Shown here one piece after another: positions 12,086 through 41,960 of a stretch of 64,000 bases of DNA. The position numbers and the translations under genes are program-made. The notes below the pieces were generated by a model. That model made no database searches. It saw only the letters and a program-made list of their open reading frames with translations, and was not told where the DNA came from. Source of the DNA: Gemmobacter caeruleus. GTDB taxonomy: Bacteria > Pseudomonadota > Alphaproteobacteria > Rhodobacterales > Rhodobacteraceae. The stretch covers positions 124,001 to 188,000 of the forward strand of contig NZ_VKKX01000033.1 of NCBI RefSeq assembly GCF_008271655.1. The letters are read 5' to 3'. The first letter of the stretch is position 1; each line of letters starts with the position of its first letter.

Positions 12086-12112
12086 AATAATCGCCTCATG
12101 GTGGATATTGCA

Positions 12113-12359: not shown

Positions 12360-12740
12360 ATGATCATCAATTCGCTCGACACCATCCAGAATACCGAACG
12401 TGACGTTGCCTGGGGCAACGGGCAGAGCCGCCGCCTGCTGCTGGCCGCGGACAACATGGGGTATTCGCTGACCGATACCATCATCGACGAAGGCACCGCC
12501 TCGCTCCTGGAATATCGCAATCATCTGGAAGCCTGCTACTGCATCGAAGGCGAGGGCGAGGTGATCGACCAGACCACCGGCCAGACCCACAAGATCGTGC
12601 CCGGCACGATGTATGCGCTGGACAAGCATGAAAAGCACATCCTGAAGGCCGACAAGACGATGCGTCTGGTCTGCGTCTTCAACCCGCCGCTGAAAGGGCC
12701 GGAGGCCCACAAGCTCGGCGCCGAAGGTTCGGCCTACTGA
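12360..12740 (+). CDS. Ectoine-synthase-like cupin (EctC family)
   Basis: EctC closes N-gamma-acetyl-diaminobutyrate to ectoine by water elimination. This 126-residue protein aligns along its whole length with EctC, including HLEACYCIEGEGEV, PGTMYALDKHEKHIL and RLVCVFNPPLKGPEAH. The Glu, Tyr and His that bind iron in EctC appear conserved. No ectA, ectB or ectD is nearby, and the gene heads an operon of ketosynthase, carrier-protein and trp-like genes. It is therefore more likely a cyclising enzyme of this pathway than an osmoprotectant enzyme. A solitary EctC that uses imported precursor is the alternative. Confidence 0.82.
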   Translation: MIINSLDTIQNTERDVAWGNGQSRRLLLAADNMGYSLTDTIIDEGTASLLEYRNHLEACYCIEGEGEVIDQTTGQTHKIVPGTMYALDKHEKHILKADKTMRLVCVFNPPLKGPEAHKLGAEGSAY

Positions 12741-12770
12741 TCCTCCCCAACTGCCCGAGGCCGTATTGCC

Positions 12771-13727
12771 ATGTCTGACAGCATCGTCATCACTGCGACC
12801 GCGCTTGCGCTGGCTGAACAGCCTGCCCCTTCTGTCCCTGCGGGGGGCAAGACGGCTTCGGGCGCCTTTTCCATTCTGCGTCTGCCCGAGGAACCGGCGG
12901 ATCGCCGTCACACGCAACTGTCCAGCCGCCTGTCGCGGCTGATCGGGGAACTGGCCAGCCGGGCCGGACTTTTGCCGGCCGATCTGGCCGGGCCGACCAC
13001 GGGGCTGGTGTCGGGGTCGCGCTATGGCTGTTCGCTGGTCGCGGACATGCATCGCCGGCTGCGCGAACTGGGCCCGCGCGGGATCGACGCGGTCGGTTTT
13101 GCGCAGGCGACACACAACTTTCCCGTTTCGGCCTGCGCGATCGACTATGGCATTCAGGGGCCGGGGATTGCGCTTGTCAGTTCGCACGCCGCCGGGATGG
13201 AGGCGCTGACCTGTGGCCGCGACTGGCTGCTGGAGGGGCGCTGCGACCGGGTGATCGTTGCCGCCTTCGAGGATCTCGAAGGCCCGGCTGCGGCGCATGT
13301 CGAATTGCTGGCCGCCCCCGGCGCGCCGCCGGTGCATGAAGCCATGGCGCTGGTCTTGCTGGAACGCGGCAGCACCGCAAGGGCGCGGCGGGCAACGGTG
13401 CTGGCGGAAATCGCCGGCACGGCCATGATGCGACCAGGCGCCGAAACCGGCGATCTGCGCGCCGTCGCGCAGCGGGCCTTTGGTCATCTGCCCGCCAGCA
13501 TGGGCATTCTGCTGGCCGCGCCTGAAAGTGCGAGCCCGCCCGAAACGGCAGGTGGCGCGCCGATGCTGGTCGATTGCCTGGCCGTCGGCGGGTTGCTGGC
13601 GCTGATCCGCGCGCTGGACCGGCCCGGACCCGGCGACTGGCTGGTGGGTGCCCTTGATCCCCGCACCGGGGGCATCGCCGCCGGCCTGCGCTGCCCGCCA
13701 AACGCCTGTTCGGAGGTGGCCGCATGA
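12771..13727 (+). CDS. Ketosynthase-like partner lacking the active-site cysteine (chain-length-factor type)
   Basis: This 318-residue protein has a thiolase-fold ketosynthase pattern but is short. At the expected nucleophile site it reads LVSSHAAGMEAL, placing His139 where a catalytic Cys would stand. That is the hallmark of KS-beta or chain-length-factor subunits. It overlaps the following intact ketosynthase by ATGA, so the pair probably forms a heterodimer as in type II polyketide and aryl-polyene systems. It should influence chain length or stability rather than catalyse condensation. Confidence 0.75.
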   Translation: MSDSIVITATALALAEQPAPSVPAGGKTASGAFSILRLPEEPADRRHTQLSSRLSRLIGELASRAGLLPADLAGPTTGLVSGSRYGCSLVADMHRRLRELGPRGIDAVGFAQATHNFPVSACAIDYGIQGPGIALVSSHAAGMEALTCGRDWLLEGRCDRVIVAAFEDLEGPAAAHVELLAAPGAPPVHEAMALVLLERGSTARARRATVLAEIAGTAMMRPGAETGDLRAVAQRAFGHLPASMGILLAAPESASPPETAGGAPMLVDCLAVGGLLALIRALDRPGPGDWLVGALDPRTGGIAAGLRCPPNACSEVAA

Positions 13728-14944
13728 CAGGTTCGGTTGTCATCACCGGAATCGGTGTCGTGGTGCGCGATGCGATGGGGCTTGATGCCTTTGCCGACTG
13801 GCTGATGCCGGGTGGCGGATTGCCGGATCGCCCCGAACATTTCGACACGAGCGCATTCCGCGCCGGCAATGCCTATGCGGTCAACCCCGATCGCTGTGCC
13901 ACTGCGCTGGCGCGTCTGGGTCTTGCCGGTCTTCTGCCGGAGAGCGACCGTGATTGCGCGGCGCATGGTCTGCTTGCGGCGGCCGAGGCGCTGGCCATGG
14001 CGGGGCTTGACGATGCGGCGCTGCGCGCGGCCTGTGGCTGTGTCATGGCCACGACCAGCGGCGGCATGATGGACCGCTTTGCCGATGCGATTTGCGCGGG
14101 CGATGATGGTGCGGATTACCGCCTGACCGCACCGCCCGGCGCCACGGCCGAGGTTCTGGCCCGGCAATTCGGATTGCAGGGGCCCTTCGCCAGCTTTTCC
14201 AGTGCCTGTGCCAGTTCCCCGGCGGCGTTTTCCTATGCGCTGTCGCGGGTGCGCCGGGGCGATACGCCGCTGATGCTGGTGGGCGGCAGCGACCGGATGC
14301 GCGCCGCCGATTTCGCCGGGTTCAATGCCTTGCGGGCGATGGATCGCGATTCCTGCCGGCCGTTCGACCAGACACGGCGCGGCATGGTGATCGGCGACGG
14401 CGCCGCGATGCTCGTCATCGAGGACGAGGCACATGCCCTGGCGCGCGGCGCCCGGCCGCTGGCACGGCTGCGCGAGGTGGGGCTGGCGCTGGATGCCCAT
14501 CACATCACCCATCCCAGCCCCGACGGCCTGGCGCGGGCGATGCGGCAGGCGCTGCATCGCGCAGGGCTGGCGCCGGACCAGATCGCCTATGTGAACTGTC
14601 ACGGCACCGGAACGCCGGTCAATGACAAGACCGAGGTCGAGGCGCTTGCCGCCGTCTTTGCCGATGAATCGGCGCGCCCGCTGATCAGTTCGACCAAGGG
14701 CGCCACCGGGCATCTTCTGGGCAGTGCCGGCGCCATCGAGGCGGTGATCACCATTCTTGCCCTGCGGCTGGGTTGTGCGCCGGCCATGGCCACCACCGCC
14801 GCGCCCGAACCGACCCGCTTTCCCATGCCGGGGCCAGATGGCCCGGCGCCCTTCGCCGGAACCTTCGCGATGAGCAATTCGCTGGGCTTTGGCGGCATCA
14901 ACAGCAGCCTGATCTTTGAAGCCTGTGCCGGAGACGCGAGATGA
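13724..14944 (+). CDS. Beta-ketoacyl-ACP synthase (type II, KS-alpha)
   Basis: The 406-residue protein is a FabF-like condensing enzyme that extends an acyl chain on a carrier protein with malonyl-ACP. The Cys-His-His triad and conserved Lys are visible: Cys162 in FSSACASSPAAF, His in NCHGTGTPVNDKTEVEAL, and Lys and His in STKGATGHLLGSAGAIE. The glycine-rich C-terminus NSLGFGGINSSLIF is standard. It overlaps both neighbours by four bases. No ketoreductase or malonyltransferase is encoded nearby, so these may come from fatty acid synthesis, or the beta-keto group may be kept. Confidence 0.92.
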   Translation: MTGSVVITGIGVVVRDAMGLDAFADWLMPGGGLPDRPEHFDTSAFRAGNAYAVNPDRCATALARLGLAGLLPESDRDCAAHGLLAAAEALAMAGLDDAALRAACGCVMATTSGGMMDRFADAICAGDDGADYRLTAPPGATAEVLARQFGLQGPFASFSSACASSPAAFSYALSRVRRGDTPLMLVGGSDRMRAADFAGFNALRAMDRDSCRPFDQTRRGMVIGDGAAMLVIEDEAHALARGARPLARLREVGLALDAHHITHPSPDGLARAMRQALHRAGLAPDQIAYVNCHGTGTPVNDKTEVEALAAVFADESARPLISSTKGATGHLLGSAGAIEAVITILALRLGCAPAMATTAAPEPTRFPMPGPDGPAPFAGTFAMSNSLGFGGINSSLIFEACAGDAR

Positions 14945-16125
14945 CCCGCAGCCTGACCCTGCCCGCAACGGGCGCGCCGCCCGCGTCTTTCCGGGCCGAT
15001 CTTGTGGCCGAACTTTGCCAGGGGCTTGACCGTTGGCAAGGTGTGTTCAACAGCAACTGGCAAGAGGATGACCGCGCCGGCGTCCTGTCGCAGAACCGCT
15101 GGCAGGCGGTGTGCGAGGCCGGGCTGACCGCGCTGACCATCCCCGAGGCCTATGGCGGTCTTGCGCTGACAGCAGCGGAGCTGGCGCAGGTGCTCGAATA
15201 TCTCGGCAGCATCTGCGAGGATAGCGGCTTGGGCTTTACCCTGGCGACCCATCTGTGCAGCACCTGCATTCCGGTGGCGCGCTTCGGATCCGACGCGCTG
15301 AAGGCCGCGCTGCTGCCTGCGCTGGCGGCGGGCGACTGTGTGGGTGCCCATGCCATTACCGAACCCGACAGCGGCTCTGACGCCTTTGCCATGCGCAGCC
15401 GGGCGGTGCCCGGCCCCGGCGGATATACCCTGAGCGGCGAGAAATGCTATATCTCCAGCGCGCCGCTGGCCGATGTGATCGTGGTCTATGCGCGCACCCA
15501 TCCCGACAAAGGCGCGCTTGGCGGTTTCAGCGCGCTGGCGGTGGATCGTCACCTGCCCGGCGTGACGGTCGGCCAGCCGCGCAGCAAGATGGGCCTGCGC
15601 ACCGCCCCCATGGCGGATCTGCATTTTGACGCCGTGGCCGTGCCGGACGGCGCGCTGATCGGGCGCGAGGGGCAGGGATTTTCCATCCTCGACTATGTGA
15701 TGAAATGGGAAATCCTCTGTGTCTTCGCGCTTCAGGTCGGCGAGATGCGGCGCCAGCTGCGCCGGTCGATCGACTGGGCAAAGGGGCGCCAGCAATTCGG
15801 ACAAGCCATCGGCAATTATCAGGCGGTCTCGCATCGCATCGCCGACATGCATATGCGGCTGGAAGGTGCCGCGAACTGGCTGAGCCGCGCCGTTGCCGCG
15901 ATGGAGGGGGGCGGGCGCGCCTCGCTGGAGATCGCCTCGGCCAAGCTCGCGATTTCCGAGGCCCATGTCGCCAATTCCCTGGATGCGATCATGCTGCATG
16001 GCGGCGCCGGCTACATGTCGGAAACCGGGATCGAGGCCGGGCTGCGCAATGCCGTGGGCGGGCTGATCTATTCCGGCACCTCTGACATCCAGCGCAACCG
16101 GATTGCCGCGATGATCGGGCTGTGA
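14941..16125 (+). CDS. Acyl-CoA dehydrogenase family flavoprotein, probable carrier-bound substrate oxidase
   Basis: The 394-residue protein is a typical acyl-CoA dehydrogenase: HAITEPDSGSDAFAM (FAD contact), WAKGRQQFGQAIGNYQAV and a C-terminal GTSDIQRNRIAAMIGL. Placement directly before a stand-alone adenylation enzyme and a carrier protein matches the proline-to-pyrrole triad of prodigiosin and pyoluteorin pathways (PigA/PltE-type dehydrogenase). There the enzyme oxidises prolyl-S-carrier to pyrrolyl-2-carboxyl-S-carrier. The VMKWE segment is in the region where the family places its catalytic Glu. The substrate is inferred from context only. Confidence 0.85.
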   Translation: MTRSLTLPATGAPPASFRADLVAELCQGLDRWQGVFNSNWQEDDRAGVLSQNRWQAVCEAGLTALTIPEAYGGLALTAAELAQVLEYLGSICEDSGLGFTLATHLCSTCIPVARFGSDALKAALLPALAAGDCVGAHAITEPDSGSDAFAMRSRAVPGPGGYTLSGEKCYISSAPLADVIVVYARTHPDKGALGGFSALAVDRHLPGVTVGQPRSKMGLRTAPMADLHFDAVAVPDGALIGREGQGFSILDYVMKWEILCVFALQVGEMRRQLRRSIDWAKGRQQFGQAIGNYQAVSHRIADMHMRLEGAANWLSRAVAAMEGGGRASLEIASAKLAISEAHVANSLDAIMLHGGAGYMSETGIEAGLRNAVGGLIYSGTSDIQRNRIAAMIGL

Positions 16126-16135
16126 GGGCGGGGGC

Positions 16136-17653
16136 ATGACGCAGCATATGAAGGATATCGCAGGGCTGGCCCCCACTGGCGCGGCGTTTGCCGAGGCGCT
16201 TTTGTCCGCCATCGGTCGCGCGCCGGGCGGGCGCGTGGCGGGTGGCTGTGGTGCCGTGCTGACGCATGACGACATGCTGGCACGGGTCGCACAGATCAGG
16301 GTCGGGATGGCCGGGTTGCCGGATGGGCCGGTCGCGATTTGCGCGGCCAAGCGGCCTGATACCATCGCGGCGGTGCTGGCGGTGCTGGCCGACGGGCGGG
16401 CCTATGCGCCCCTCGATCCCGGACATCCCGAGGACCGGCTGACCGGCATTCTGGATCTGCTGCGCCCCGCGGCGCTGCTGGTGGATGCACTGGCCGAAGA
16501 CCGGCTGCGCGGCTGGGCCAGCGCGGCGGGGGTTGCCCTGCGGCGCCTCGATGCGCTGACCGTGCGGGCCGAGCCACCCTGCCCGCGACCCGATGGCGGG
16601 CTGGCGGCGCTGCTGCATACCTCCGGTTCGACCGGGGTGCCGAAACAGGTTCGCATCGCCGCGCCGGCGCTGGATCAGTTCAATGCCTGGGTGCGGTGGG
16701 AATTCGGCTTGCGGCCGCAGGATTGCCTGCTCAGCCATGCGCCGCTGGCCTTCGACCTGTCCTTTCTCGATATTTTCGCGGGCTTGTCAGTCGGGGCAAG
16801 TCTGGCCCTGGCCGATGCCGAAACCGCACGGAGCGGCGAGCGGTTGCTGCGGCTGATCCGCGAGGCCGGCGTGACCGTGGTGCAGGCGGCGCCGTCGGCC
16901 CTGGCGCTGATGGTGCGCGCGGCCGAGGGGCAGTGCTTTCCCGCCGTGCGCGCGGTGCTGTTCGCGGGCGAACCGATGCCTGCCCCCGTGCTGCGCGACA
17001 TCTTCCGGGTGTTTCCGGCGGCGCGGGTGGTCAATGTCTATGGCTGCACCGAGACCAACGACACGTTCTTTTACGACGTGCCGCGCGCCGACACGCCCGA
17101 TCCGCTGCCCTTGGGCAGGCCCTTGCCCTATGTCTGTCACGAGGTGATGACCGAGGAAGGGCACCCCGTTCCGATCGGAGAGGAGGGCGAGCTTTGGGTC
17201 GCCTGCCCCACCACGATGGAGGGCTATTCCGACCCCGCGCTGACGGCGCGCGCCTTTGGCCACTGGCAGGGCCGGCGCTACTATCGCAGCAATGACCGCG
17301 TGCGTCTGGGCGAGGACGGCCTGATGCATTTCCTTGGCCGCGCCGACAGCGTGCAGAAGATCAGCGGCCATCGCGTCGATCTGGCCGAGGTGGAGGCGCA
17401 TCTGGCGCGGCTGCCCGGGGTGGTGGAACTGGCGGTCTATGTGGTCCGGCGTGGTGACGAGGCGCAGCTTGAATGCGCTGTCGCGACCGATGGCCGCGCG
17501 CTTGGCAGTCTGGATCTGCGGCGCCATGCGATGACCGCCCTGCCCGCCCCGGCGATCCCGCGCCGCTATGCGATTTCGGCGCAGCCTTTGCCCAAGAATT
17601 CCAACGGCAAGATCTGCCGCAGGATGTTGGCCAGCCTCGCGCTGGCCGTCTGA
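16136..17653 (+). CDS. Stand-alone amino acid adenylation enzyme (NRPS A-domain type)
   Basis: This 505-residue ligase activates a carboxylate as an acyl-AMP and loads it on a carrier protein. Core motifs are LLHTSGSTGVPKQ (A3), YGCTETNDTFF (A5), GELWVACP (A6), YYRSNDRVRL (A7), FLGRADSVQKISGHRVDL (A8) and the catalytic lysine in KNSNGKICRR (A10). The gene lies between a dehydrogenase and a carrier protein, as PltF/PigI-type L-prolyl-AMP ligases do. Proline is therefore the leading substrate guess, but the binding pocket was not decoded and another amino acid is possible. Confidence 0.88.
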   Translation: MTQHMKDIAGLAPTGAAFAEALLSAIGRAPGGRVAGGCGAVLTHDDMLARVAQIRVGMAGLPDGPVAICAAKRPDTIAAVLAVLADGRAYAPLDPGHPEDRLTGILDLLRPAALLVDALAEDRLRGWASAAGVALRRLDALTVRAEPPCPRPDGGLAALLHTSGSTGVPKQVRIAAPALDQFNAWVRWEFGLRPQDCLLSHAPLAFDLSFLDIFAGLSVGASLALADAETARSGERLLRLIREAGVTVVQAAPSALALMVRAAEGQCFPAVRAVLFAGEPMPAPVLRDIFRVFPAARVVNVYGCTETNDTFFYDVPRADTPDPLPLGRPLPYVCHEVMTEEGHPVPIGEEGELWVACPTTMEGYSDPALTARAFGHWQGRRYYRSNDRVRLGEDGLMHFLGRADSVQKISGHRVDLAEVEAHLARLPGVVELAVYVVRRGDEAQLECAVATDGRALGSLDLRRHAMTALPAPAIPRRYAISAQPLPKNSNGKICRRMLASLALAV

Positions 17654-17686
17654 TCTGTTCTTTTCCCGCAATCCCAAGGAGCCAAC

Positions 17687-17941
17687 ATGACCCAGATTGC
17701 CCGTATCCGTGCCTTCATCTGTGCCGAATTCGCCCCCGACATCCAGCCGCAGGATCTGCCGGCCGATCTCGATCTGATCCAGAGCGGGATCATCGACAGC
17801 CTCGGCGTGCTGAAGCTGGTGGCCTTTCTGGAGGATGATTGCGGCATCGCCATCGCCCCGGAGGAACTGGATGCCGAGCTGTATCAATCGCTCGACGCCA
17901 TTGCCGCGCTGATTGACGGCAAGACCGCGAACGCCGCCTGA
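17687..17941 (+). CDS. Acyl/peptidyl carrier protein
   Basis: This 84-residue protein is a discrete carrier protein. The phosphopantetheine attachment serine is in SGIIDSLGVLKLVAFLED. A strong AAGGAG site lies before the ATG. It directly follows the adenylation enzyme and is the probable acceptor of its activated amino acid, and perhaps also the partner of the ketosynthase pair upstream. It resembles the small PltL/PigG-type carriers in size and position. Confidence 0.93.
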   Translation: MTQIARIRAFICAEFAPDIQPQDLPADLDLIQSGIIDSLGVLKLVAFLEDDCGIAIAPEELDAELYQSLDAIAALIDGKTANAA

Positions 17942-17968
17942 CCACAGGCCCATCAAAGGAGCATCCCG

Positions 17969-19012
17969 GTGACCCCCGAAGCCGTTGCTGCCGCGCTGAT
18001 CGCTGGCAAGACACCCGATATCGCGGACATGACGGCCTATTGGCTGGCCACCGATGCCGCGCAACGCCCCAAAGCCGAAACCGTCGCGGTTCTGGCGGCC
18101 CTGTCGGCGGCGCCGACGCAGGCCGACAGGGTCGAGGCTTTCGTGCGCTATGTCGATGAAAGCTATGAGGCGCATCAGCTGGCCTGCGGCCCGGCGGCGG
18201 TGAATATCGTCGGCACGGGGGGCGGGGCCTCGACCTTCAACATCTCGACCACGGCGGCAATCGTCGCCGCGGCCGCGGGTGGCACGGTGCTGAAATCCGG
18301 CTCCTCAGCCTATTCCAGCAGCGTGGGTTCGGCCGATATCCTGTCGGCGCTTGGCCTCGGGCGCCCGATGGCGCTGCCGGTGATGAACGCCATGCTGTCG
18401 GAAACCGGGCTCGCCTTCGCACCGGCTTCGGCCTATGCGCCGATCTGCCGCCGCCTTGCCATTGCCGCGCAACCCCTGCCCTTCAAGGTGATCGGGCGTT
18501 TCATCAATGCCCTCGGCCCGTTGATCTGCCCCTTTGCGGTGCGCGGCAGCGTGGTCGGCGCCTCCAGCCCCGAAGGCTATGAGGTCATCCGCACCGTCGC
18601 GCATCGCACCGGGCGGCGCCTTCTGGCTGTGCATTCCGAACTGGGGGTGGATGAACTGCTCTCGATCGGCCCCAACCGGATCGGATGGGCCGACGGGCAG
18701 GCAGATAGCCGGCTTGACCCCGCCACGCTGGGCCTTGCGGCGGGGCCGCTGGTGCTGTTGAGCGGCGGCACCCTCGATCACAACGTCGCGCTGTTGCAGG
18801 ATGTGCTGCGCGGGCGCGCCCCGCAGGCGGCGCTGGAAACCGTGGCGCTGAACGCGGGCGCGGTGCTGCATGTGGGCGGTCGCGCCGCCAGTGTCGAAGC
18901 GGGCACAGCCCTGGCGCTGGATTGCCTGCGCGAGGGCGCGCCCTTTGGCAAGCTGCGGCAGGTGCAACGCTTTGCCCAATCGGTGCGCCGCCATCAGGAG
19001 GCCGCGGAATGA
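17969..19012 (+). CDS. Divergent anthranilate phosphoribosyltransferase homologue (TrpD-like)
   Basis: TrpD transfers phosphoribose from PRPP to anthranilate. The 347-residue length and the block FNISTTAAIVAAAAGGTVLK are typical. Start is GTG at 17969 with AAGGAG upstream. Several substrate-contact motifs differ from canonical TrpD: GTGGD reads GTGGG, KHGN reads KSGS, and the HHPA/MRHVAPVR region reads FAPASAYAPICRR. The fold and phosphate-binding parts are kept, but anthranilate recognition may be altered. It lies within the carrier-protein operon and overlaps a trpC-like gene. Confidence 0.82.
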   Translation: MTPEAVAAALIAGKTPDIADMTAYWLATDAAQRPKAETVAVLAALSAAPTQADRVEAFVRYVDESYEAHQLACGPAAVNIVGTGGGASTFNISTTAAIVAAAAGGTVLKSGSSAYSSSVGSADILSALGLGRPMALPVMNAMLSETGLAFAPASAYAPICRRLAIAAQPLPFKVIGRFINALGPLICPFAVRGSVVGASSPEGYEVIRTVAHRTGRRLLAVHSELGVDELLSIGPNRIGWADGQADSRLDPATLGLAAGPLVLLSGGTLDHNVALLQDVLRGRAPQAALETVALNAGAVLHVGGRAASVEAGTALALDCLREGAPFGKLRQVQRFAQSVRRHQEAAE

Positions 19013-20132: not shown

Positions 20133-20142
20133 TCTACATGAT

Positions 20143-20173: not shown

Positions 20174-20177
20174 GTCG

Positions 20178-25042: not shown

Positions 25043-25108
25043 CGCCACAATCCTGTCTCTGGCCCCGTGGCGGAGCGTCTCCGCCACGGCCCCTTCCGGG
25101 AGATTTCC

Positions 25109-29682: not shown

Positions 29683-29826
29683 GTCACTCTCCTTCCTAAA
29701 TGACCTAACGGAAGTCTTCCTAGTAATAGCGCAGCTCTAGCATCCGGAGCGCGAAAATTGAAGGAAGATTTGACCGCTGTGGTTGAGTACGCGGTTCCTT
29801 CGGCAGAATTGTGACAGCGTTAACAT

Positions 29827-30459: not shown

Positions 30460-30470
30460 CATACGCTCCT

Positions 30471-31079: not shown

Positions 31080-31095
31080 TGCGGCGGTTCCGGGA

Positions 31096-34074: not shown

Positions 34075-35450
34075 TGCATGCGATCAGCTTTGATCTTGCC
34101 CGGGATCCGGCAGAATTCCTGCGCAGCGATCCCGGCCTCTCCGGCGGGTTCCACCTTCTGTATCAGAAAGACCAGACCCAGATCATCGCCGCCGATCCGC
34201 TGGCCATCTATCGCGTGGCCTGGGATTGCCGGTCGGTGGAGATCCGCCGGCGCGGCATCGACACCCCGGAACGGGTGGAACTGCCCGGGGCGGATCCCTT
34301 TCCCTTTCTGAACGCCCAACTGGCGCGCTTTGCCGCCACCCATGCGACGCCGGATGTGCCTTTCTTCAAGGGCGGGCTGATCGGGATCAACAGTTTTGAG
34401 GGGCTGAGCAGCTTTCTCAAGATCGACAGCCTGCATCCGGGGCAGGTGCCCTTCGTCTACGGGCTGTTCGACAATTTCATCGTGACCGATCTTGCCGCGC
34501 AGCGCTGCCATATCGTGTTCAGCCCCGGCAGGGCGGCAAAGGCGCTGGCGCTGCGGGCGCGTCTGGCAGACTGGGCGCGGGATGACCGCCCCGCCCTGCG
34601 GCGGCGCACCCGCAGCCTGACCGAATTTCGCGCGGCGGCTGCGGACCATACCGATTTCGTCGCGCGTATCCGAGAGGGGGTGGAGCGCATCAAGCCGCAT
34701 CTGACCTGCGGCAACAGTTTCCAGACGGTGCTGAGCCATGAGCTGCGCCTGCCGGTGCAACGCGGCGCCTATGACAGCTTTCTGGCCATGCGCCATCACC
34801 CGAGCGCCTACAAGTATTTCGTCCAGTTCGACGATATCCGCATTGCCGGCATCTCGCCCGAGAATCTGGTGATTGTCGGCGACGGACGGGCGCGGATGAC
34901 GCCGCTTGCGGGCACACAGCCCCGCCATGACGACCCCGAGGCACAGGCGCGCAGCATTGTCGCCCTGCGGCAAAGCACCAAGGAAATCGCCGAACATACG
35001 ATGCTGGTCGATCTGGTGCGCAATGATCTGGGCCGCATCTGCCAACCGGGCAGCGTGGAGGTGCGGGCGTTCCAGTATGTCGCGCCTTTCGGGCCGGTCA
35101 TGCATCTGGCCAGCGATGTGGAGGGCAGCTTGTCCAAGGGCGTGACGCCGCTGGACGTGATGCGCGCGCTGTCGCCGGCGGGCACGATGACCGGCGCCCC
35201 CAAACGGCGCTCGATCCAGATCATCCGGGAACTGGAGCCGGGTCCGCGCGGCTTTTACAGCGGCAATATCGGCTTTGCCGATGTCAGCGGCGCGGGCGAT
35301 TTCGCGATCATCATCCGCTCGGCCATCCACGATACCCCGCGCGAGGCCAGTTTGCGGGCCGGCATGGGCATCGTGCTGGATTCCACCGCCGCCGAGGAGG
35401 CGGAGGAATGGCTGCACAAGGTCTATTCCGCCGGAAAGGAATGCGTATGA
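34071..35450 (+). CDS. trpE: Anthranilate synthase component I homologue
   Basis: TrpE converts chorismate to anthranilate with ammonia from TrpG. The 459-residue protein has CGNSFQTVLSHEL, EHTMLVDLVRNDLGRI, the PAGTMTGAPKRRSIQII block, RGFYSGNIGF and a C-terminal EEAEEWLHKV magnesium site. The N-terminal LLES motif that senses tryptophan reads LLYQ in GGFHLLYQKD. The enzyme may therefore be insensitive to feedback, as expected for one serving secondary metabolism. It overlaps both the MFS and trpG genes by four bases. Confidence 0.9.
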   Translation: MMHAISFDLARDPAEFLRSDPGLSGGFHLLYQKDQTQIIAADPLAIYRVAWDCRSVEIRRRGIDTPERVELPGADPFPFLNAQLARFAATHATPDVPFFKGGLIGINSFEGLSSFLKIDSLHPGQVPFVYGLFDNFIVTDLAAQRCHIVFSPGRAAKALALRARLADWARDDRPALRRRTRSLTEFRAAAADHTDFVARIREGVERIKPHLTCGNSFQTVLSHELRLPVQRGAYDSFLAMRHHPSAYKYFVQFDDIRIAGISPENLVIVGDGRARMTPLAGTQPRHDDPEAQARSIVALRQSTKEIAEHTMLVDLVRNDLGRICQPGSVEVRAFQYVAPFGPVMHLASDVEGSLSKGVTPLDVMRALSPAGTMTGAPKRRSIQIIRELEPGPRGFYSGNIGFADVSGAGDFAIIIRSAIHDTPREASLRAGMGIVLDSTAAEEAEEWLHKVYSAGKECV

Positions 35451-36043
35451 CCCGCCGCCATGTGCTGATCATCGACAATTTCGACAGTTTCGTCTTCAAC
35501 GTGCCGCAGGTCATGGCGCGGGCGCATGATCTGACCTTTGACATGGTGCCCAATGATGCGGTCGAGGACCGGCATCTGTGCCTGGATCGCTACAGCCATG
35601 TCGTCATCTCGCCCGGGCCGGGCAACCCCACCGATCCTGCGGATTTCGGCGGGTCGTCGCGGGTGATCGCCTTTTATGCCGGGCGCAAGCCGCTGTTGGG
35701 TATCTGTCTGGGCCATCAGGGCATTGCCGCGCATTTCGGCGCGCGGATCGAGACCGCGCGGCGGATCATGCACGGCAAATCCTCGCGGCTGGAGGTCACC
35801 GGCGATTGCCCGATGTTCGCCGGGGTCGGGGCGCCGGAAACCATGCGGTATCATTCGCTTGTCGTCGCCCCGGGCACCTTGCCGCCCATGTTCCGCGTGA
35901 CCGCCGTCACCGATGACGAACATCGCGAGATCATGGCCTTCAGCGCGCCCGAGCAGAAGATCTTTGCCCTGCAATTCCACCCTGAATCCGTCGCGACCCC
36001 CGAAGGGCCGCGCATGCTTTCCAATTTCCTGTCCATCACCTGA
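35447..36043 (+). CDS. trpG: Anthranilate synthase glutamine amidotransferase component
   Basis: TrpG releases ammonia from glutamine for TrpE. The 198-residue protein has IIDNFDSFVFNV at the start, the nucleophile in GICLGHQGI, MRYHSLVV and the His-Glu pair in LQFHPESVATPEG. The start at 35447 overlaps the trpE stop (ATGA). All catalytic residues are present. It may also supply ammonia to the second chorismate enzyme at 39331, whose own amidotransferase-like domain appears dead. Confidence 0.94.
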   Translation: MTRRHVLIIDNFDSFVFNVPQVMARAHDLTFDMVPNDAVEDRHLCLDRYSHVVISPGPGNPTDPADFGGSSRVIAFYAGRKPLLGICLGHQGIAAHFGARIETARRIMHGKSSRLEVTGDCPMFAGVGAPETMRYHSLVVAPGTLPPMFRVTAVTDDEHREIMAFSAPEQKIFALQFHPESVATPEGPRMLSNFLSIT

Positions 36044-36050
36044 GGTCGCC

Positions 36051-37454
36051 ATGTGGATCCCCTCTGACGAAAGCCAGCTCAATTTCGTGACCGCCTATCT
36101 GGCCGTGAACCGCAAATATCAGGCCGGCACCCTGACCGAGGCGGAGCGCGCCACCTGGCGCGAAACGCAGTTCCGCAAGGTGCTGGACAAAACCCGCCAA
36201 TCGCCGTTTTACCGCGACCATGTCGATCACGACGCCATCGGATCGCTGGCCGATCTGGACCGGATTCCGTTCACCACCAAGGATCACCTGCGCAGCCGCA
36301 TGACCGACATGCTGAGCGGCCCGTTGCGCGATGCGTTGTTCTATTACGAGACCACCGGCACGACCGGCCCCGCCACGCCTTGCCCGCGCGACTATCGCGA
36401 GGTCATCGCCTCCAATTGCCAGATCACCGAGAACTGGCGCGCGGTCTTTGCCTCGGTCTTTGGCGAGGGCTATCGCCCGATCGTGGGGCTGATGGGCCCG
36501 ACCGAGGTGCATTCCTTTGGCGATACGCTGGGCACGGTCTGCCAGAACCTGAACCTGTGCAATTTCAAGATCTGGCCCTATTCGCCGGTCATCGGCTTTC
36601 CCAAGGCGCTGCAATTGCTGCGCGACCACGGGATCGAGGTCATCGTCTGCACCCCCGGCGTTGCGATGAACCTCATCAAGGCGGCGGCGCATTACGGGTT
36701 CGACATGGAGCGCGATTTCGCGGTGAAGGCGGTGTTCCTGACCGGCGAGATGTCCACCCCCGGCCTGATGCAGAATATCGGCTCGATCTGGGGGGCGCAG
36801 GTGTTCAACTGCCTCTATGGCTCGCAAGAGGCGTTCATCATGGCCTCGGTGCGGCCCGACGGTCAGATGTATATCGCCGATCCCAACTACATCACCGAGG
36901 TGATCGACCCCGCCACCGATGAAAGCCTGGGCGAGACGGGCACCGGCGAATTGTGCGTGACCATGCTGATGGACGGGATCAAGCCGCTGCTGCGCTACCG
37001 CACCGGCGACATGGTGACGGTGCGTGCCACGGGCCGGCCAGGGCCAGAGCGGTTGCAGGTCGATGTGATCGGCCGCACCCGCGACCGGATCACCCTGAAT
37101 GACCGGCTGTTTTCGGCCTATGAGATCGAAAGCGCGATCCTGGAACCCGTCACCCACTGCATCGCCTATCAGATCATCATCGACTATGCCGGGGGCGCCG
37201 ATCATCTGGAGATCCCGGTGGAATTCAGCAAGGCCGCGCGCGACGTGCCGGCCCTGTGCCGGGCCATCGAACAAAGCTGCGCCGAGGTGCTGGGCTGCAA
37301 GGCCCGCGTGATCGTGGTGTCGGAGATCGACCAGGTGGTGACGACCGCGGCCTTCGTGTCGTGGAAGGCTGCGCGGATCATCGACCGTCGCCAGGCCGAA
37401 CCCGATGCGGAATCGCTGGTTTCGCATCGCATGGCCAAGCGTCGGGGGTATTGA
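36051..37454 (+). CDS. PaaK-like (phenylacetate-CoA ligase family) adenylating enzyme
   Basis: This 467-residue enzyme belongs to the PaaK/coenzyme F390 synthetase branch of adenylating enzymes. Landmarks are YYETTGTTGPATPCP (phosphate loop), YGSQEAFIM, LLRYRTGDMV and RDRITLNDRLFSAYEIE. The ATG at 36051 follows trpG by seven bases. Placement next to anthranilate synthase suggests activation of anthranilate or a related aryl acid as an adenylate, for CoA or a carrier protein. The substrate is not decidable from sequence alone. Confidence 0.82.
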   Translation: MWIPSDESQLNFVTAYLAVNRKYQAGTLTEAERATWRETQFRKVLDKTRQSPFYRDHVDHDAIGSLADLDRIPFTTKDHLRSRMTDMLSGPLRDALFYYETTGTTGPATPCPRDYREVIASNCQITENWRAVFASVFGEGYRPIVGLMGPTEVHSFGDTLGTVCQNLNLCNFKIWPYSPVIGFPKALQLLRDHGIEVIVCTPGVAMNLIKAAAHYGFDMERDFAVKAVFLTGEMSTPGLMQNIGSIWGAQVFNCLYGSQEAFIMASVRPDGQMYIADPNYITEVIDPATDESLGETGTGELCVTMLMDGIKPLLRYRTGDMVTVRATGRPGPERLQVDVIGRTRDRITLNDRLFSAYEIESAILEPVTHCIAYQIIIDYAGGADHLEIPVEFSKAARDVPALCRAIEQSCAEVLGCKARVIVVSEIDQVVTTAAFVSWKAARIIDRRQAEPDAESLVSHRMAKRRGY

Positions 37455-37456
37455 TC

Positions 37457-38098
37457 ATGGCCGCGCACCGTCTGGGAAAGGATGCGTTCCGCGCCTTCTT
37501 TGCGGCGCAGGACCATGTGCGCATCGGCTCGCTCGGGCCGGGCGGCACCTCGTCGGATACGGTGCTGCGCGATCTGCTGCACCCGATCCCGGCAGACCGC
37601 TGGCGTATCGTGCTGAAACCCAGTTTCGACGCGGTGTATGACGATCTGCTGGCGGGCGAGATTGATTATGCCCTGGTGCCAAGCGCCTATACCAATTCGA
37701 CCCGGTTCTACTGGTCTTCCGAATTCCGGCTGGAAGGCGCCTTTGTCGAGCCGACACCGGCCTATCACCTGGCCCTGCCGGACCGGATCGAACATCCGCT
37801 GACCATCGCGGCCTGCGATGCGGTGCGCCACATGATCCATGCCCATTTCGCCGATCACCTGCCCGACGATCTGCAAATCCTGCGGGCCGAATCCACCGTG
37901 CAATCGGCGGAAATCGTGGCGCAGGGCCGGGCGGATGCCTGTGTCACCAACGAACCCGGCCGCGCGCAATACGGGCTGGCGGCGCGCGCCAGCCTGCCCG
38001 GCGTCGACATGATCTGGTCGGTTTTCAGCCTGCGCGCCACGGCCTCTCCTCCTCTGGCGGCACCGCTCGCCCCTTGCCCAACCCAGGTAGCCTCATGA
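37457..38098 (+). CDS. Prephenate dehydratase/decarboxylase-like protein (BacA-like)
   Basis: The 213-residue protein resembles the prephenate dehydratase fold, and from memory looks closest to BacA, the non-aromatising prephenate decarboxylase of bacilysin biosynthesis. Matching stretches are GSLGPGGTSSDT, YALVPSAYTNSTRFYW, TPAYHLALPD, ADACVTNEPGRAQYGL and VDMIWSVFSL. No ACT domain is present. It would act on prephenate or an amino-substituted relative. The gene sits between the ligase and amidohydrolase genes with an ATGA overlap downstream. Confidence 0.72.
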   Translation: MAAHRLGKDAFRAFFAAQDHVRIGSLGPGGTSSDTVLRDLLHPIPADRWRIVLKPSFDAVYDDLLAGEIDYALVPSAYTNSTRFYWSSEFRLEGAFVEPTPAYHLALPDRIEHPLTIAACDAVRHMIHAHFADHLPDDLQILRAESTVQSAEIVAQGRADACVTNEPGRAQYGLAARASLPGVDMIWSVFSLRATASPPLAAPLAPCPTQVAS

Positions 38099-39327
38099 CC
38101 CATACGACCATCATCACCAATGTCGCCCTGTTTGACGGCACCGGCGCCGCGCCGGTCGCGGACCGCAATCTCGTGGTGCAGGGCGACCGCATTCTGGAAA
38201 TCACCGAGGGCGCCGCGATGGCGCCCGGGCGGGGCCGCGATGAAACCGTGATCGACGGGCGCGGCAAGACCGTGATCCCCGGTCTGGTCTTTGCCCATAC
38301 GCATCTGGGCTATCACAATGTCCTTGGCGCGCGGGAGGTGCTGTTCAAATACCCGTTGACCGAACTGGCCTTCGTCGCGGCACTGAACGCGCAACGCGCC
38401 CTGCGGCTGGGCTACACGACCATGGTGGGCGCAGGGTCGATCTGCAATCTTGACACCTATCTGAACAATGCCATCCGGGCCGGGCTGTTTGCCGGGCCGC
38501 AGATACTGCCTTGCAGCCGCGATCTGATGGTGGCCGGGCCCGAGGGGCGGCGCGACCCGTCCAAGGTCAAGCATATCCCGCGCGACTACATGCCGATCCT
38601 TACCGAACTGGCCGAATTCGTCGCCGCCGTGGACAAGGAAATCGACGATGGCGCGCAGATCATCAAGACCTTTGCCACGGGTGACGACCAGTTCCCCAAT
38701 GCCAAATCCGACGAGCCGCTTTACACGCTGGACGAGCTGAAATGCGTGGTCGAGGTGGCGGGCCGCCGCGGCGTGCTGGTCCGCAGCCATGCGCGCGGGC
38801 GCGAAGGCATCGAAAAGGCCATCGCGGCCGGTGTCGATATCGTCGATCACGCGACCTATTCCGATCAGTCCTGCCTCGACGGTCTGCTGGCCAAGGGGCA
38901 AACGGTGGTGCCCAGCTATTTTCAGCCCAAGATGTTTCTGGAAAAGGGGGCCGCTTTCGGCGCCGATCCCGACCGCACCGAATTTGCCGCCGAGGTGGCC
39001 AATACCCGCGCCTTCCTGCCCGTGGCGCATGAGATGGGCATCAATATCGCGCTTGGCGACGATTTCGGCTTTGCCTGGACCCCGCATGGCACCTATCACG
39101 ACGAGCTGGAGGCGTTCCAGCACGAGCTGGGCTTTGACGGGGCCACGGTGCTGAAATGGGCGACGCTGGGCGGGGCGCGGATGATCCGGCAGGATCACCG
39201 CATCGGCACGCTGGCCCCCGGCAAACAGGCGGATCTCGTGCTGGTCGAGGGCGATCCCGTGGCGGATGTCCGGGCGCTCAAATCCGGGATACGCGGTGTC
39301 ATGCTGGCCGGGCAGATGCAGGGCTGA
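38095..39327 (+). CDS. Amidohydrolase family metal-dependent hydrolase
   Basis: The 410-residue enzyme has the imidazolonepropionase-like amidohydrolase fold: N-terminal HxH in VFAHTHLGYH, a candidate carbamylated lysine in IIKTFATG, histidines in VRSHARG and VDHATYSD, and the catalytic Asp in IALGDDFGF. The start at 38095 overlaps the previous stop (ATGA). No signal peptide is seen. It may hydrolyse a cyclic amide, imine or formyl group in the pathway; the substrate is unknown. Confidence 0.84.
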   Translation: MTHTTIITNVALFDGTGAAPVADRNLVVQGDRILEITEGAAMAPGRGRDETVIDGRGKTVIPGLVFAHTHLGYHNVLGAREVLFKYPLTELAFVAALNAQRALRLGYTTMVGAGSICNLDTYLNNAIRAGLFAGPQILPCSRDLMVAGPEGRRDPSKVKHIPRDYMPILTELAEFVAAVDKEIDDGAQIIKTFATGDDQFPNAKSDEPLYTLDELKCVVEVAGRRGVLVRSHARGREGIEKAIAAGVDIVDHATYSDQSCLDGLLAKGQTVVPSYFQPKMFLEKGAAFGADPDRTEFAAEVANTRAFLPVAHEMGINIALGDDFGFAWTPHGTYHDELEAFQHELGFDGATVLKWATLGGARMIRQDHRIGTLAPGKQADLVLVEGDPVADVRALKSGIRGVMLAGQMQG

Positions 39328-39330
39328 GCG

Positions 39331-41292
39331 ATGATGCAGGCCTTTCAGGTTCACCGCGCGCAGGGGCGGCTGGGGCGCGATATCCGCGACATCATCCGCA
39401 GCGGCGGGCTTTCGCGGCCTTGCCTGCTGGAAACCCGCCTGTTTGACGAGGAGGAGGGTGGCAAGGACATCTTCTTTTGCGATCCCCCCCTGCTGATTGA
39501 GGGGCGCGGCCGGCATCTGCGGGTATCGGCGCTGAACGCGCGGGGCCAGGCGCTTTTGCCGCTGTTCCATCCGCCGTCGCCAGATATGGGCGCACTGGCC
39601 TATCTCGACCATCTTTGCGCGCAATTCCGCGGCACGGTCTTTGCGGAATTCGGCCTGACCGGCGCGCTGCCGCATGATTTTGCCGAGGCCGAGCCGGGCG
39701 AAGGGGCGAATTTCTGCCTCTATTTCGCCGATGCGGTGTTTCTGCTCGACAGCGGGTCGGACCGCTATCAGTTCCGGGCCATCGGGGCAGAAGCTGCACT
39801 GGCCGGGTTGGCCTGCCTGCCGGCGCAGCTTGCGGCGCGGCCGGCGCGGCCCGATGGGCCACCGCTGCGCTTTGGACCGCTGGAGGGGCCGCCGCAGGAT
39901 CGTGTCATCGCGATGCTGCGGGCCGGTCTGGGGCTGATCGACAGCGGCGCGTTGCACCAGCTGACTCTGTCACGCCGCTACAGCCTGACCTATGCGGGCA
40001 ATCCGTTCGAACTTTATGGCCATTACGCCGCCGCGAACCCGACCAGCCACAATTACTATCTGGATTTCGGCCGCTTCGGGTTCTTCGGCGCCTCGATCGC
40101 CACCCAGTTGAAGCAGAATGCCGGGCGGCTTTCGACGATTGCCATCGGCGGCACCACGCGGCGCCATGCCCAAGACCCGTCGCGTCAGGCCGAAGGGTTG
40201 GCCCGGCTGCTGACCTCGGGCAAGGAACGGGATGAGCTGGATATGCTGGTGGATCTGGCGCGCAACGATCTGACTGCGCTGTCCGGGCAGCCGGCGCTTG
40301 TCTCGAATTACCGCCATTTCAGCTATCACAGCCGGGTCGTGCATACCTACGCCCGCATCACCGCCCCCGCGCCGCCCGATCTGCCGATCTTTGCCGCGCT
40401 CGCGCGGACCATGCCCGCCGGCACTGTCAGCGGCTATCCCCGCGCCACCGCCTGTCGCGCCATTGCCCGGCTGGAACCGGAACATCGCGGTTTCTATGGC
40501 GGTGCCATCGGCCATGCCGGCTTTTCGGGCGAGTTCGACATGTCGGTGGGCATTCGCGGCGTGACCTTCGACGCGCAGCGCATGAGCTTTCAGGTCGGCT
40601 CGACCCTGGTGGCGCGCTGCGACCCGGTCGAGGAATATCACGAGGCCGAACAGAAGGCGGCGGGGTTTCTGGATACCCTGCGCCGATTGCGCCCGGTGAA
40701 TGCCGCCCCTGCGCCGGTCCGACCCGCGCTGCCACGGTTGCGCATCGACGATCCGCAGGACCGGGCCGGGGCGCTATATGCGGCGGCGCGCGGGCCGGAT
40801 GCCCGCGGGCCTGACCTGCGGCTGGTGCTGTCCTGGCCCGCCGAGATGTCAGACGGCGATATCGCCGCGCAATCCGGGCCGTTTCTTGCCGTGGGCGATG
40901 CGGCATGGGAGCTCGTGGCGGCGCGGCCCGATCTCGGGCTGCGCCGTGTGCCGGTCGAGGGGCGGTTCGACTGGCGCGACGGGCACGCGCAGGCCGCCTT
41001 CCTGCCGTCTTACCGCCATTGCCTGCTGGCCGCGCCCGAGGGCGGCAACACCCGCGAAATCGGCGAAACCTCGGTCGAGGGCGGCATCCTGTTCCGGCTG
41101 GAGGGCGACCGCTTTCTGTGCCTGATCGACCCGCTTTCCACCGCCATGGTGATCAGCGGCCAATCCGAGAACGCCCTTGCGGCCATACTGGGCGCGGTGG
41201 CGCGCCTCTTGCAGCCCGAACCACCCTTGTCCTCCCCCGTGCAGCCCGACCTCATGCAGAAGGAATTCGTGCCATGTCCGGCAAACCTGTGA
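39331..41292 (+). CDS. Chorismate-binding enzyme fused to a degenerate amidotransferase-like domain (PhzE-like layout)
   Basis: The 653-residue protein has a chorismate-utilising domain (about residues 190-450): LDMLVDLARNDLTAL, PAGTVSGYPRATA, HRGFYGGAIGHAGFSG and EEYHEAEQKAAGFL. The last 190 residues align in order with a glutamine amidotransferase but lack its catalytic residues: FLAVGDAAWE stands where CLGHQ is expected, and DPLSTAMVIS where FHPES is expected. The size equals PhzE, which makes 2-amino-2-deoxyisochorismate. Without glutaminase activity it may borrow TrpG ammonia or use water. It is the second chorismate enzyme in the operon. Confidence 0.76.
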   Translation: MMQAFQVHRAQGRLGRDIRDIIRSGGLSRPCLLETRLFDEEEGGKDIFFCDPPLLIEGRGRHLRVSALNARGQALLPLFHPPSPDMGALAYLDHLCAQFRGTVFAEFGLTGALPHDFAEAEPGEGANFCLYFADAVFLLDSGSDRYQFRAIGAEAALAGLACLPAQLAARPARPDGPPLRFGPLEGPPQDRVIAMLRAGLGLIDSGALHQLTLSRRYSLTYAGNPFELYGHYAAANPTSHNYYLDFGRFGFFGASIATQLKQNAGRLSTIAIGGTTRRHAQDPSRQAEGLARLLTSGKERDELDMLVDLARNDLTALSGQPALVSNYRHFSYHSRVVHTYARITAPAPPDLPIFAALARTMPAGTVSGYPRATACRAIARLEPEHRGFYGGAIGHAGFSGEFDMSVGIRGVTFDAQRMSFQVGSTLVARCDPVEEYHEAEQKAAGFLDTLRRLRPVNAAPAPVRPALPRLRIDDPQDRAGALYAAARGPDARGPDLRLVLSWPAEMSDGDIAAQSGPFLAVGDAAWELVAARPDLGLRRVPVEGRFDWRDGHAQAAFLPSYRHCLLAAPEGGNTREIGETSVEGGILFRLEGDRFLCLIDPLSTAMVISGQSENALAAILGAVARLLQPEPPLSSPVQPDLMQKEFVPCPANL

Positions 41293-41960
41293 CTGTCCAT
41301 ATTGTCAGCGGCTCGGAGCGGGCCGGAGGCAATTCCGATCTGGCCGTCGATCTGATCCGCGCCGAGATCGCGGCCGAGGGCGGGCAATCCGGCGTGACCT
41401 ATCTGCGCGATCTCGACATGCATCCGTGCAGCGCCTGCGGCAATTGCAACATGCGCAGTGAACCCTGCGCCGGGCAGGATGACATGCCGGCGCTGATCGA
41501 CCGGCTGGTTCAGGCCGATGCGCTGGTCTATGTCGCGCCGGTGCATGGCTATGGCCTGGCGCATCTGATGCAGATCTTCATCGAACGCGCCGGGGTCGGC
41601 TATCTGCGGTTTGAACGCCCGCTGATCAACAAGGTGGGCTGTGCCGTGGTGGTGGCGCGGCGCTATGCGCATACAGAGGTGTATAACCAGCTGCTGAACA
41701 ACATGCTGCTGAACCGGATGCTGGTGGCGGGGGGCGGTTTTCCGACCACGCTGATCGGTGGCGCGCCGGGTGAAATTCTGAACGATACCGAAGGCTTGGC
41801 CAATCTGCGCACCAATATCCAGCGCATGCTGGGGCTTGCGCGGCTGCTGGCAGAGACGCCGGCCGAACTGACCGGGCGGCGGCTGGGTCTGGGCAGCGTC
41901 AATGAACGTCTGGCCTTCGCGCAGCGCGAGGCCGAGCGCGGCGCCGTCCTCGGACATTGA
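41274..41960 (+). CDS. Iron-sulfur flavoprotein / NADPH-dependent FMN reductase family
   Basis: This 228-residue flavodoxin-fold protein starts VTVHIVSGSERAGGNSDLAV (FMN phosphate loop). It carries a Cys-rich cluster HPCSACGNCNMRSEPC (spacing C-x2-C-x2-C-x5-C), as in archaeal-type iron-sulfur flavoproteins that hold a 4Fe-4S centre. The segment YVAPVHGYGLAHLMQIFIER is family-typical. It overlaps the previous gene by 19 bases and ends the operon. It could supply electrons or reduce a pathway intermediate. Confidence 0.83.
   Translation: MSGKPVTVHIVSGSERAGGNSDLAVDLIRAEIAAEGGQSGVTYLRDLDMHPCSACGNCNMRSEPCAGQDDMPALIDRLVQADALVYVAPVHGYGLAHLMQIFIERAGVGYLRFERPLINKVGCAVVVARRYAHTEVYNQLLNNMLLNRMLVAGGGFPTTLIGGAPGEILNDTEGLANLRTNIQRMLGLARLLAETPAELTGRRLGLGSVNERLAFAQREAERGAVLGH

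Follow-up and report, generated by a model that had tools for sequence, protein, structure and literature searches.

Here, we analysed a stretch of 64,000 nucleotides from Gemmobacter caeruleus (contig NZ_VKKX01000033.1, positions 124,001 to 188,000; hereafter the window, with position 1 at its first letter), which lies on our contig C23 of a 3.99-Mb genome in 55 contigs. A reading of the sequence alone had singled out positions 12360-41960 as a hybrid biosynthetic island, in which homologues of the tryptophan enzymes TrpE, G, D, C, F, A and B are interleaved with ketosynthase (KS), adenylation, carrier and tailoring proteins, and had proposed that the island works as one unit. Our analysis indicates that the island is real but consists of two neighbouring clusters, namely, a core (4937-32319) that recurs in a few relatives and encodes altered TrpD-, TrpC-, TrpF- and TrpA-like proteins, and a right module (32818-41960) whose genes match a benzoxazolinate-type cassette. 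Gene content, modular conservation, motif changes and the cassette match are read from the sequence; every reaction discussed below is what we infer from them, and the explanation as a whole, inferred route included, stands in our judgement slightly on the favourable side of even.

Results

Gene calling by codon statistics combined with Pfam recovered within 12360-41960 every family named in the sequence-only reading. The tight overlaps on which the idea of a single unit was based exist, with ten junctions overlapping by 4 to 19 bases, but strand changes produce at least five transcription units, in blocks on the forward (12360-20132), reverse (20178-23768), forward (24146-28898), reverse (28915-32319) and again forward (32818-41960) strands; given these five blocks, a single operon was rejected. 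The proposal of one functional unit is not supported by the comparison with relatives either: their gene content splits the island at 32319. On the far side of this point, TrpE and TrpG fall together with SgcG-, PaaK- and SgcD-like genes and not with the altered TrpD, TrpC, TrpF and TrpA. The proposed borders held only in part, because the conserved unit begins farther left, at about 4937, and the genes beyond 32319 form the separate module. Nucleotide similarity to the corresponding stretch of a sister Gemmobacter (locus L115) stops at 32319, the start of TrpB, and the stretch to the right of this position was found beside the core in no relative examined. The GC profile shows no step at 32 kb, no tRNA gene lies within the window, and a scan of 30000-42500 for promoters and terminators remained at chance level.

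The core was traced with two strict peptide patterns in a collection that represents each of 84,980 species by a single genome, a scan by which distant clusters may be missed. Six of the resulting 46 loci match the amine-oxidase-like enzyme of the core (AmOx) over nearly its full length, and all six, from Gemmobacter, Primorskyibacter, Litoreibacter, Pacificoceanicola, Rhodobacteraceae bacterium Prado181 and Roseobacter, contain core genes. The other 40 show a short N-terminal match only; when five of these were checked for other core genes, four had the short AmOx match alone and one also had regulator-type matches. AmOx matches occur on 8 of 72,556 plasmid records, all from Aliiroseovarius crassostreae, and the one plasmid that was opened (locus L072) carries the core plus its left part up to the ABC transporter, with LysE and MFS genes sitting between AmOx and UbiX. 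A search with the AfsA-like protein of the core gave any match in 5 of 198 family genomes, 4 of them strong (own genome included), and the AfsA profile, at E 1e-8, found 1 of 385 class genomes, our own being the one. With the AmOx profile, strong matches (E 1e-30) are limited to 2 of 390 order genomes, and within the genus 8 of 11 genomes have any match and 2 of 11 a strong one (own included in both). These counts reject a wide alphaproteobacterial distribution, and because strong matches are so few in the family, order and class, the core appears from these searches to be rare and patchy in Rhodobacterales and plasmid-borne in one species.

Synteny in Rhodobacterales was found for the core, with gene order kept within blocks, and not for the right stretch. 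Two family regions that were fetched contain the same genes as the window core in the same within-block order, and a third is a 5.5-kb fragment. The shared blocks comprise EctC, KS-like, KS, dehydrogenase, adenylation domain, carrier, TrpD, TrpC and a short receiver; TrpF, TrpA, AfsA and AmOx; LolA, MMPL and UbiD; and the regulator with UbiX. The order of these blocks varies among species, and the order inside them is constant in those seen. The sequence-only reading had recognised no characterised pathway with the combination of families found in the island. This stands for the core, for which we found no characterised pathway with the same combination in the open-access literature, but not for TrpE and TrpG, which fit the characterised benzoxazolinate pathway (PMC10098953). 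Nor did we find, in the same literature, any account of A. crassostreae clusters, so that, as far as these searches show, the core is a rare, conserved combination that has not been described.

The right module encodes, throughout on the forward strand, an MFS exporter (32818-34074; PF07690), a TrpE/SgcD-like chorismate enzyme (34071-35450), a TrpG-like glutamine amidotransferase (35441-36043), a PaaK-family ligase (36051-37454), a prephenate-dehydratase (PDT)/BacA-like protein (37457-38098), an amidohydrolase (38095-39327; PF01979), a second chorismate-binding, TrpE/PhzE-like enzyme of 653 residues (39331-41292) and an SgcG-like FMN/Fe-S dehydrogenase of the FMN_red family (41274-41960). The benzoxazolinate cassette has been defined as SgcD or another 2-amino-2-deoxyisochorismate synthase, an SgcG-type dehydrogenase and a PaaK-family ligase (PMC10098953), and proteins of these three types occur together within 34071-41960. 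The TrpE-like protein is 36% identical to SgcD over 321 residues and scores 161 bits against it, compared with 129 bits against TrpE of the same genome; the amidotransferase is 41% identical to the component II protein of the sgc cluster and 38% to the genome's own TrpG; the ligase is 43% identical to the sgc PaaK-family protein and 48% to a protein from a Pseudomonas amygdali plasmid; and the dehydrogenase is 46% identical to SgcG, with four aligned Cys residues. Because of these matches to sgc genes and the complete cassette trio (PMC10098953), the "TrpE and TrpG" of the right module most likely do not serve tryptophan synthesis, and the module appears, from its gene content, to be a benzoxazolinate-type cassette and thereby to add a new case to a pathway type already known. 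A single origin of the Trp set from TrpE to TrpB was rejected, since E and G fall in with the genes of the sgc cassette.

The cassette of C-1027 from Streptomyces globisporus (locus L146) contains counterparts of the right-module genes for SgcG, the PaaK-family protein, SgcD and the component II protein. The gene order differs, however, and in the right module the PDT-like protein, the amidohydrolase and the second chorismate-binding enzyme are interspersed; moreover, no enediyne genes were recognised among the genes of the island. The P. amygdali plasmid pPt0893-29 (locus L073) carries a related, though diverged, set of component II, component I, PaaK-family and flavodoxin-family genes, but its flavodoxin lacks part of the Fe-S Cys set of SgcG and its accessory genes differ. 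On this plasmid, the TrpG-TrpE-PaaK-flavodoxin set, an iron-containing redox enzyme and a hypothetical protein occupy 5298-11193, and further plasmids of P. amygdali and P. syringae have matches to its PaaK and flavodoxin genes. In a comparison of the window with the sgc PaaK protein, neither shows the last Cys-x-Cys pair of the zinc-binding Cys-His-Cys-Cys tetrad reported for XsbC. An FMN_red search returned any match in 25 of 385 class genomes, the 24 others being 20-36% identical, and, judged by the SgcG-like protein, no second benzoxazolinate-type case was found among the 384 other class genomes sampled. The PDT-like protein scores 25.1 bits with PF00800, just below the cut-off of 25.2; some relatives at about 30% identity are annotated as BacA, no PDB match was found up to E 1, and 394 family genomes yielded our own and two matches at E of about 5e-4, with no clear relative in the 393 others. 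In the second chorismate-binding enzyme, PF00425 (172.5 bits) covers residues 200-442, and the first and last 200 or so residues are without any Pfam match; the C-terminal stretch lies where PhzE-type enzymes carry a glutaminase domain. A plasmid search with this enzyme gave 406 records, and the 15 matches listed have identities of 24-36%.

These observations bear on whether the two clusters form one integrated pathway in this strain, with the right-module product either joined to the pyrrole or tryptophan product of the core or itself serving as the amine accepted by the TrpD-like enzyme. The clusters are directly adjacent, with TrpB starting at 32319 and the MFS gene at 32818, and 3-enolpyruvoylanthranilate, the intermediate expected of the cassette, is an anthranilate and so a possible aromatic amine acceptor (a point derived from PMC10098953). 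We nonetheless consider such integration unlikely. In the relatives examined the core occurs without the right module, and no PaaK relative above 30% identity was found in eight genomes or records, seven of them core-bearing (six genomes and one plasmid record, its chromosome left out, searched together with one same-genus genome that lacks the core). In addition, the one 7-mer repeat of the TrpB/MFS intergenic region that came up again did so in a core region of the sister species only and not in the window's own core regions, which is a weak observation from a direct-repeat search made without a chance control.

The Trp homologues of the island are extra copies, as the sequence-only reading had supposed. 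Contig C12 holds the canonical trpE, G, D and C near 152-158 kb and trpF and trpB near 270-272 kb, and trpA is on contig C1 at 558 kb, which rejects the possibility that the window holds the only trp genes of the genome. The canonical TrpF was identified not by family scan but by three features, namely, weak similarity to the TrpF of the window (E 2.6e-5), a KICG at its start and trpB as its neighbour. The D and C proteins of the window are each 32% identical to their canonical counterparts, and the corresponding values are 33% for A, 28% for F, 51% for B, 35% for E and 38% for G.

The TrpD-like protein (17969-19012, forward strand) scores 192.4 bits with TIGR01245, short of the cut-off of 199.05, which two of the seven cluster copies reach (205.6 and 199.6). 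All seven cluster copies, in contrast to all 10 canonical copies taken from the same and related genomes, have lost the Asp of GTGGD, read KSGSSAY in place of KHGNRNL (the Lys is kept; KHGN is intact in the canonical set), and lack the Arg of helix alpha-8, near which three residues are inserted. In the tree they make up a single, long-branched clade (support 1.000), and the metal-binding DE motif is kept as GVDE in all seven aligned. In TrpD of Mycobacterium tuberculosis, anthranilate is held at its carboxylate by this Arg and an Asn of the loop, and phosphoribosyl pyrophosphate (PRPP) is bound by GTGGD and HGN (PMC9835598, PMC5537072). Because the residues that hold the anthranilate carboxylate are gone, the acceptor of the TrpD-like enzyme is probably not anthranilate.

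The TrpC-like protein, related to indole-3-glycerol-phosphate synthase (IGPS; 19009-19725, forward strand; PF00218, 126.7 bits), has Ala for the Glu of the ESG motif, turning SES into SAS, in 8 of 8 cluster copies, whereas SES is intact in the one canonical copy aligned and in the three solved structures shown. Lys53, Lys110, Glu159 and Asn180, called essential in IGPS (PMC7681013), are kept wherever the site is present in the eight copies, one of which ends before Lys53. IGPS ring closure on a substrate without the carboxylate has been reported, at a much reduced rate (PMC7681013), so that an acceptor lacking an ortho-carboxylate is chemically possible. The TrpF-like protein, of the phosphoribosylanthranilate isomerase (PRAI) family (23103-23768, reverse strand), meets the PF00697 cut-off with 50.5 bits and misses all five listed NCBIfam PRAI models (best 41.6 bits against 215); the Cys of KICG and the Asp of DR are kept in 8 of 8 copies. 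The TrpA-like protein (22312-23106, reverse strand) passes TIGR00262 (106.0 bits, cut-off 102.35) and keeps Glu49 and Asp60 in 8 of 8 copies. We take the Cys and Asp of TrpF and the Glu49 and Asp60 of TrpA to be catalytic. Together, these patterns suggest that the D-F-C-A segment still closes a pyrrole ring, on an acceptor other than anthranilate.

TrpB (31096-32319, reverse strand; TIGR00263, 522.5 bits, cut-off 392.45) is a second copy. In the sister Gemmobacter, a metagenome-assembled genome (L115), it lies at 89% identity beside UbiX, the regulator and UbiD, and is therefore part of the core in its Gemmobacter form. Among 11 genomes or records searched, of which seven genomes and one plasmid record bear the core, relatives of at least 80% identity occur in 3 (own included). 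Because close relatives are present in few core-bearing genomes, TrpB is best interpreted as an accessory step of the core. Primorskyibacter has a TrpB-LysE pair (80% and 65% identity) on another contig than its core (loci L116/L117, G395:C11, about 23.0-24.9 kb); an AMP-ligase gene follows this pair, and two further genes there resemble, by eye, an acyl-protein synthetase and an acyl reductase. That the paralogues make ordinary indole or tryptophan reserved for the product and free of feedback, as is known from some other clusters, is very improbable here, notwithstanding the curated NCBIfam cut-offs passed by TrpA and TrpB and the presence of D, F, C, A and B together in Gemmobacter, given the changed anthranilate site of all seven cluster TrpDs, the restriction of TrpB relatives of at least 80% identity to three of the seven core-bearing genomes searched, and the lack of TrpE and TrpG beside the core in the examined stretches of relatives.

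The first forward block of the core encodes the putative starter and extension enzymes. The flavoprotein at 14941-16125, of the acyl-CoA-dehydrogenase family, resembles L-prolyl-carrier-protein dehydrogenases, which provide the best three of its 113 PDB matches (5zw0, 6af6 and 4irn); among NCBIfam models it scores best with PigA and RedW. It is followed by an adenylation domain, possibly for L-proline (16136-17653; PF00501, 186.1 bits), and a carrier protein (17687-17941; PF00550) with the DSL motif in 7 of 7 copies. An adenylation domain, a dehydrogenase and a stand-alone carrier also make up the PltF/PigI-, PigA/RedW- and AnaB-type triads that convert prolyl- to pyrrolyl-carrier. The core differs from these in that its putative triad is coupled to Trp-like enzymes and its dehydrogenase lies below the PigA and RedW cut-offs.

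Next to the triad lie a ketosynthase (13724-14944; best model fabF, 265.6 bits against a cut-off of 493.75), whose Cys-His-His is kept in 7 of 7 copies, and a KS-like partner (12771-13727; PF00109, 33.7 bits) without the active-site Cys in 7 of 7, a pairing of Cys-bearing and Cys-less subunits that is shared with type II KS pairs. The nearest functional precedent that we found is AmcF-AmcG of cispentacin biosynthesis; this pair acts together with a carrier and its adenylating loader in one C2 extension and a cyclisation, before a hotdog protein decarboxylates (PMC10698177). Like the core, this system combines adenylation, carrier, KS, KS-like partner and hotdog proteins, but the starter that it loads is 2-oxoglutarate (PMC10698177), and the core pair falls under the AmcF and AmcG cut-offs. 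The EctC-like cupin that opens the block (12360-12740, 126 residues; PF06339, 160.9 bits) is 74-91% identical in relatives, passes the ectoine-synthase model NF009806 (169.4 bits, cut-off 128) and aligns to a solved ectoine synthase; no ectA or ectB lies beside it, its neighbours being the transglutaminase-like and KS genes, a statement that covers these neighbours and not the rest of the genome. The block ends with a short receiver-domain protein (19722-20132), present in relatives, that scores 23.2 bits with PF00072, below the cut-off of 30.2.

On the reverse strand, the block containing TrpA and TrpF also encodes AmOx, an amine-oxidase-like FAD enzyme (20178-21482; PF01593) that is 66-84% identical in the six loci, and the AfsA-like protein (21488-22315). 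The latter contains a PF03756 domain (60.5 bits) and stays below the NF041195 cut-off (86.3 against 200 bits); in the predicted structure (pLDDT 77.4, pTM 0.81) the secondary structure fits two hotdog units, so that we regard it, with moderate confidence, as a double hotdog protein. A forward block follows, with a LolA-like protein and an MMPL exporter (24146-27547; Pfam; 62-90% identity in relatives) and a UbiD-like decarboxylase (27576-28898; PF01977, 135.5 bits) whose gene relatives share. The last block of the core, on the reverse strand, includes, besides TrpB, an OmpR-type response regulator (28915-29682; 66-68% identity in relatives, 88% in the sister Gemmobacter), a UbiX-like flavin prenyltransferase (29827-30462; NF004685, 242.9 bits, cut-off 188) and a LysE-family exporter (30471-31079; PF01810) that is 60% identical to its A. 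crassostreae plasmid counterpart and 65% to the protein beside the Primorskyibacter TrpB relative.

To the left of EctC, forward-strand genes encode an ABC ATPase, an FtsX/MacB-like permease, a LolA-like protein and a 455-residue conserved protein without Pfam match (4937-9357), with relatives beside the core at 45-67% identity in locus L022 and on the A. crassostreae plasmid, followed by an OmpR-type response regulator, a histidine kinase and a transglutaminase-like protein (9406-12085; Pfam), which also have relatives at these two loci. A Cys and a His of the transglutaminase-like protein, presumably its catalytic residues, are kept in 7 of 7 aligned copies. Upstream of EctC, at 12086-12359 in the window and likewise in relatives, a GC hairpin resembling a terminator is followed, by eye, by a conserved block that is A/T-rich and looks like a promoter; the block is alike among several Roseobacter-type species and different in Gemmobacter. 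The core is accompanied in relatives by a small membrane protein (L022, about 15.0-15.6 kb; L072, 25017-25442; L115, 13149-13667), annotated as anthrone oxygenase family in A. crassostreae and alike by eye in the others, for which no counterpart was detected in the window (best match at E 0.4). In Primorskyibacter, a 240-residue protein beside UbiX (G099:C12:89097-89819, in L013) looks like a phosphopantetheinyl transferase by eye.

Discussion

Taken together, the genes of the core are best compatible with a pathway in which a pyrrolyl starter would be extended by one C2 unit and fitted with a second pyrrole ring built from PRPP. The adenylation domain would load L-proline on the carrier and the dehydrogenase would oxidise prolyl- to pyrrole-2-carboxyl-carrier, a step that we regard as highly likely. 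The ketosynthase and its Cys-less partner would then probably add one malonyl-derived C2 unit in the manner of AmcF-AmcG. The TrpD-like enzyme might put phosphoribose on an amine of the extended or linked intermediate, whereupon the TrpF-, TrpC- and TrpA-like enzymes would isomerise it, close the pyrrole ring and release glyceraldehyde 3-phosphate, so that two ring carbons of the new pyrrole would stem from ribose; to this route we assign a chance close to, though short of, even. The product could be tailored by the EctC-like cupin, through dehydrative C-N condensation, and by the amine-oxidase-like enzyme, the AfsA-like hotdog protein and UbiD/UbiX, and exported by the LolA, MMPL and ABC proteins; in Gemmobacter, where the core has a TrpB of its own, this enzyme may join serine to the heterocycle after its release.

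A more specific version of this route, which we regard as unlikely, is a ribose-to-pyrrole annulation. In this scheme, a beta-enamino acyl intermediate formed from pyrrolyl-carrier and the C2 unit would replace anthranilate, D, F, C and A would build the second pyrrole from PRPP without the decarboxylation of TrpC, and UbiD/UbiX would later remove the carboxylate. The product would be 2,2'-bipyrrole or a close relative, reached by a route unlike that of prodigiosin, from which the Gemmobacter TrpB could make a tryptophan-like amino acid. The right module, for its part, likely makes 3-enolpyruvoylanthranilate and then a benzoxazolinate-type unit through its SgcD/glutaminase-, SgcG- and PaaK-like enzymes, with the PDT-like protein, the amidohydrolase and the second chorismate enzyme perhaps altering the product.

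Several observations weigh against these assignments. The dehydrogenase remains below the NCBIfam cut-offs (PigA, 352.5 against 500 bits; RedW, 349.1 against 650), as does the KS pair (AmcF, 219.1 against 325; AmcG, 21.2 against 80), and the top PDB matches of the adenylation domain are gramicidin synthetases, with two matched stretches each. The L-proline--carrier ligase 6o6e ranks seventh of 183, behind gramicidin synthetase entries, with 7thn also present; because the top structures are not proline ligases, the proline assignment is less clear for this domain. By identity, the TrpE-like protein is barely nearer to SgcD than to the genome's own TrpE (36% and 35%). No aminotransferase or amidotransferase was recognised among the scanned core genes, so that the acceptor amine lacks an explained source.

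Finally, the TrpD changes extend to HGN and the Asp of GTGGD, for which PRPP binding has been reported (PMC5537072), and for this reason PRPP use itself may be lost. It follows that the TrpD-, F-, C- and A-like proteins could have abandoned the PRPP route and been recruited for other barrel or transferase chemistry, an explanation with which the change of SES to SAS in all eight TrpC copies also accords. We give it little likelihood: every core seen whole retains four consecutive pathway enzymes (from Prado181 there is a fragment, in which F, A and C alone are seen), and the principal catalytic residues are kept, namely, the DE of TrpD, the two Lys, Glu and Asn of TrpC, the Cys and Asp of TrpF, and the Glu and Asp of TrpA.

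If the core works as we propose, with phosphoribose transferred to a non-anthranilate amine and a pyrrole ring closed on it, four consecutive enzymes of primary metabolism would have been duplicated as a set and adapted so that another amine is turned into a heterocycle. The core would then be a test case for the recruitment of whole pathway segments into natural-product assembly, and its altered Trp enzymes yield a specific, testable prediction. Such a cluster is easily overlooked: on the A. crassostreae plasmid that was opened, automatic annotation gives core genes the names trpA, trpD and ectoine synthase, which hides a specialised cluster and would lead a reconstruction of pathways astray. 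Pseudomonas, Vibrio, Shewanella, Brenneria, Xenorhabdus and Photorhabdus belong to the Gammaproteobacteria. The benzoxazolinate hosts named in the literature include Actinobacteria, Firmicutes and Proteobacteria such as these genera (PMC10098953), and the right module would bring benzoxazolinate-type genes into an alphaproteobacterium.

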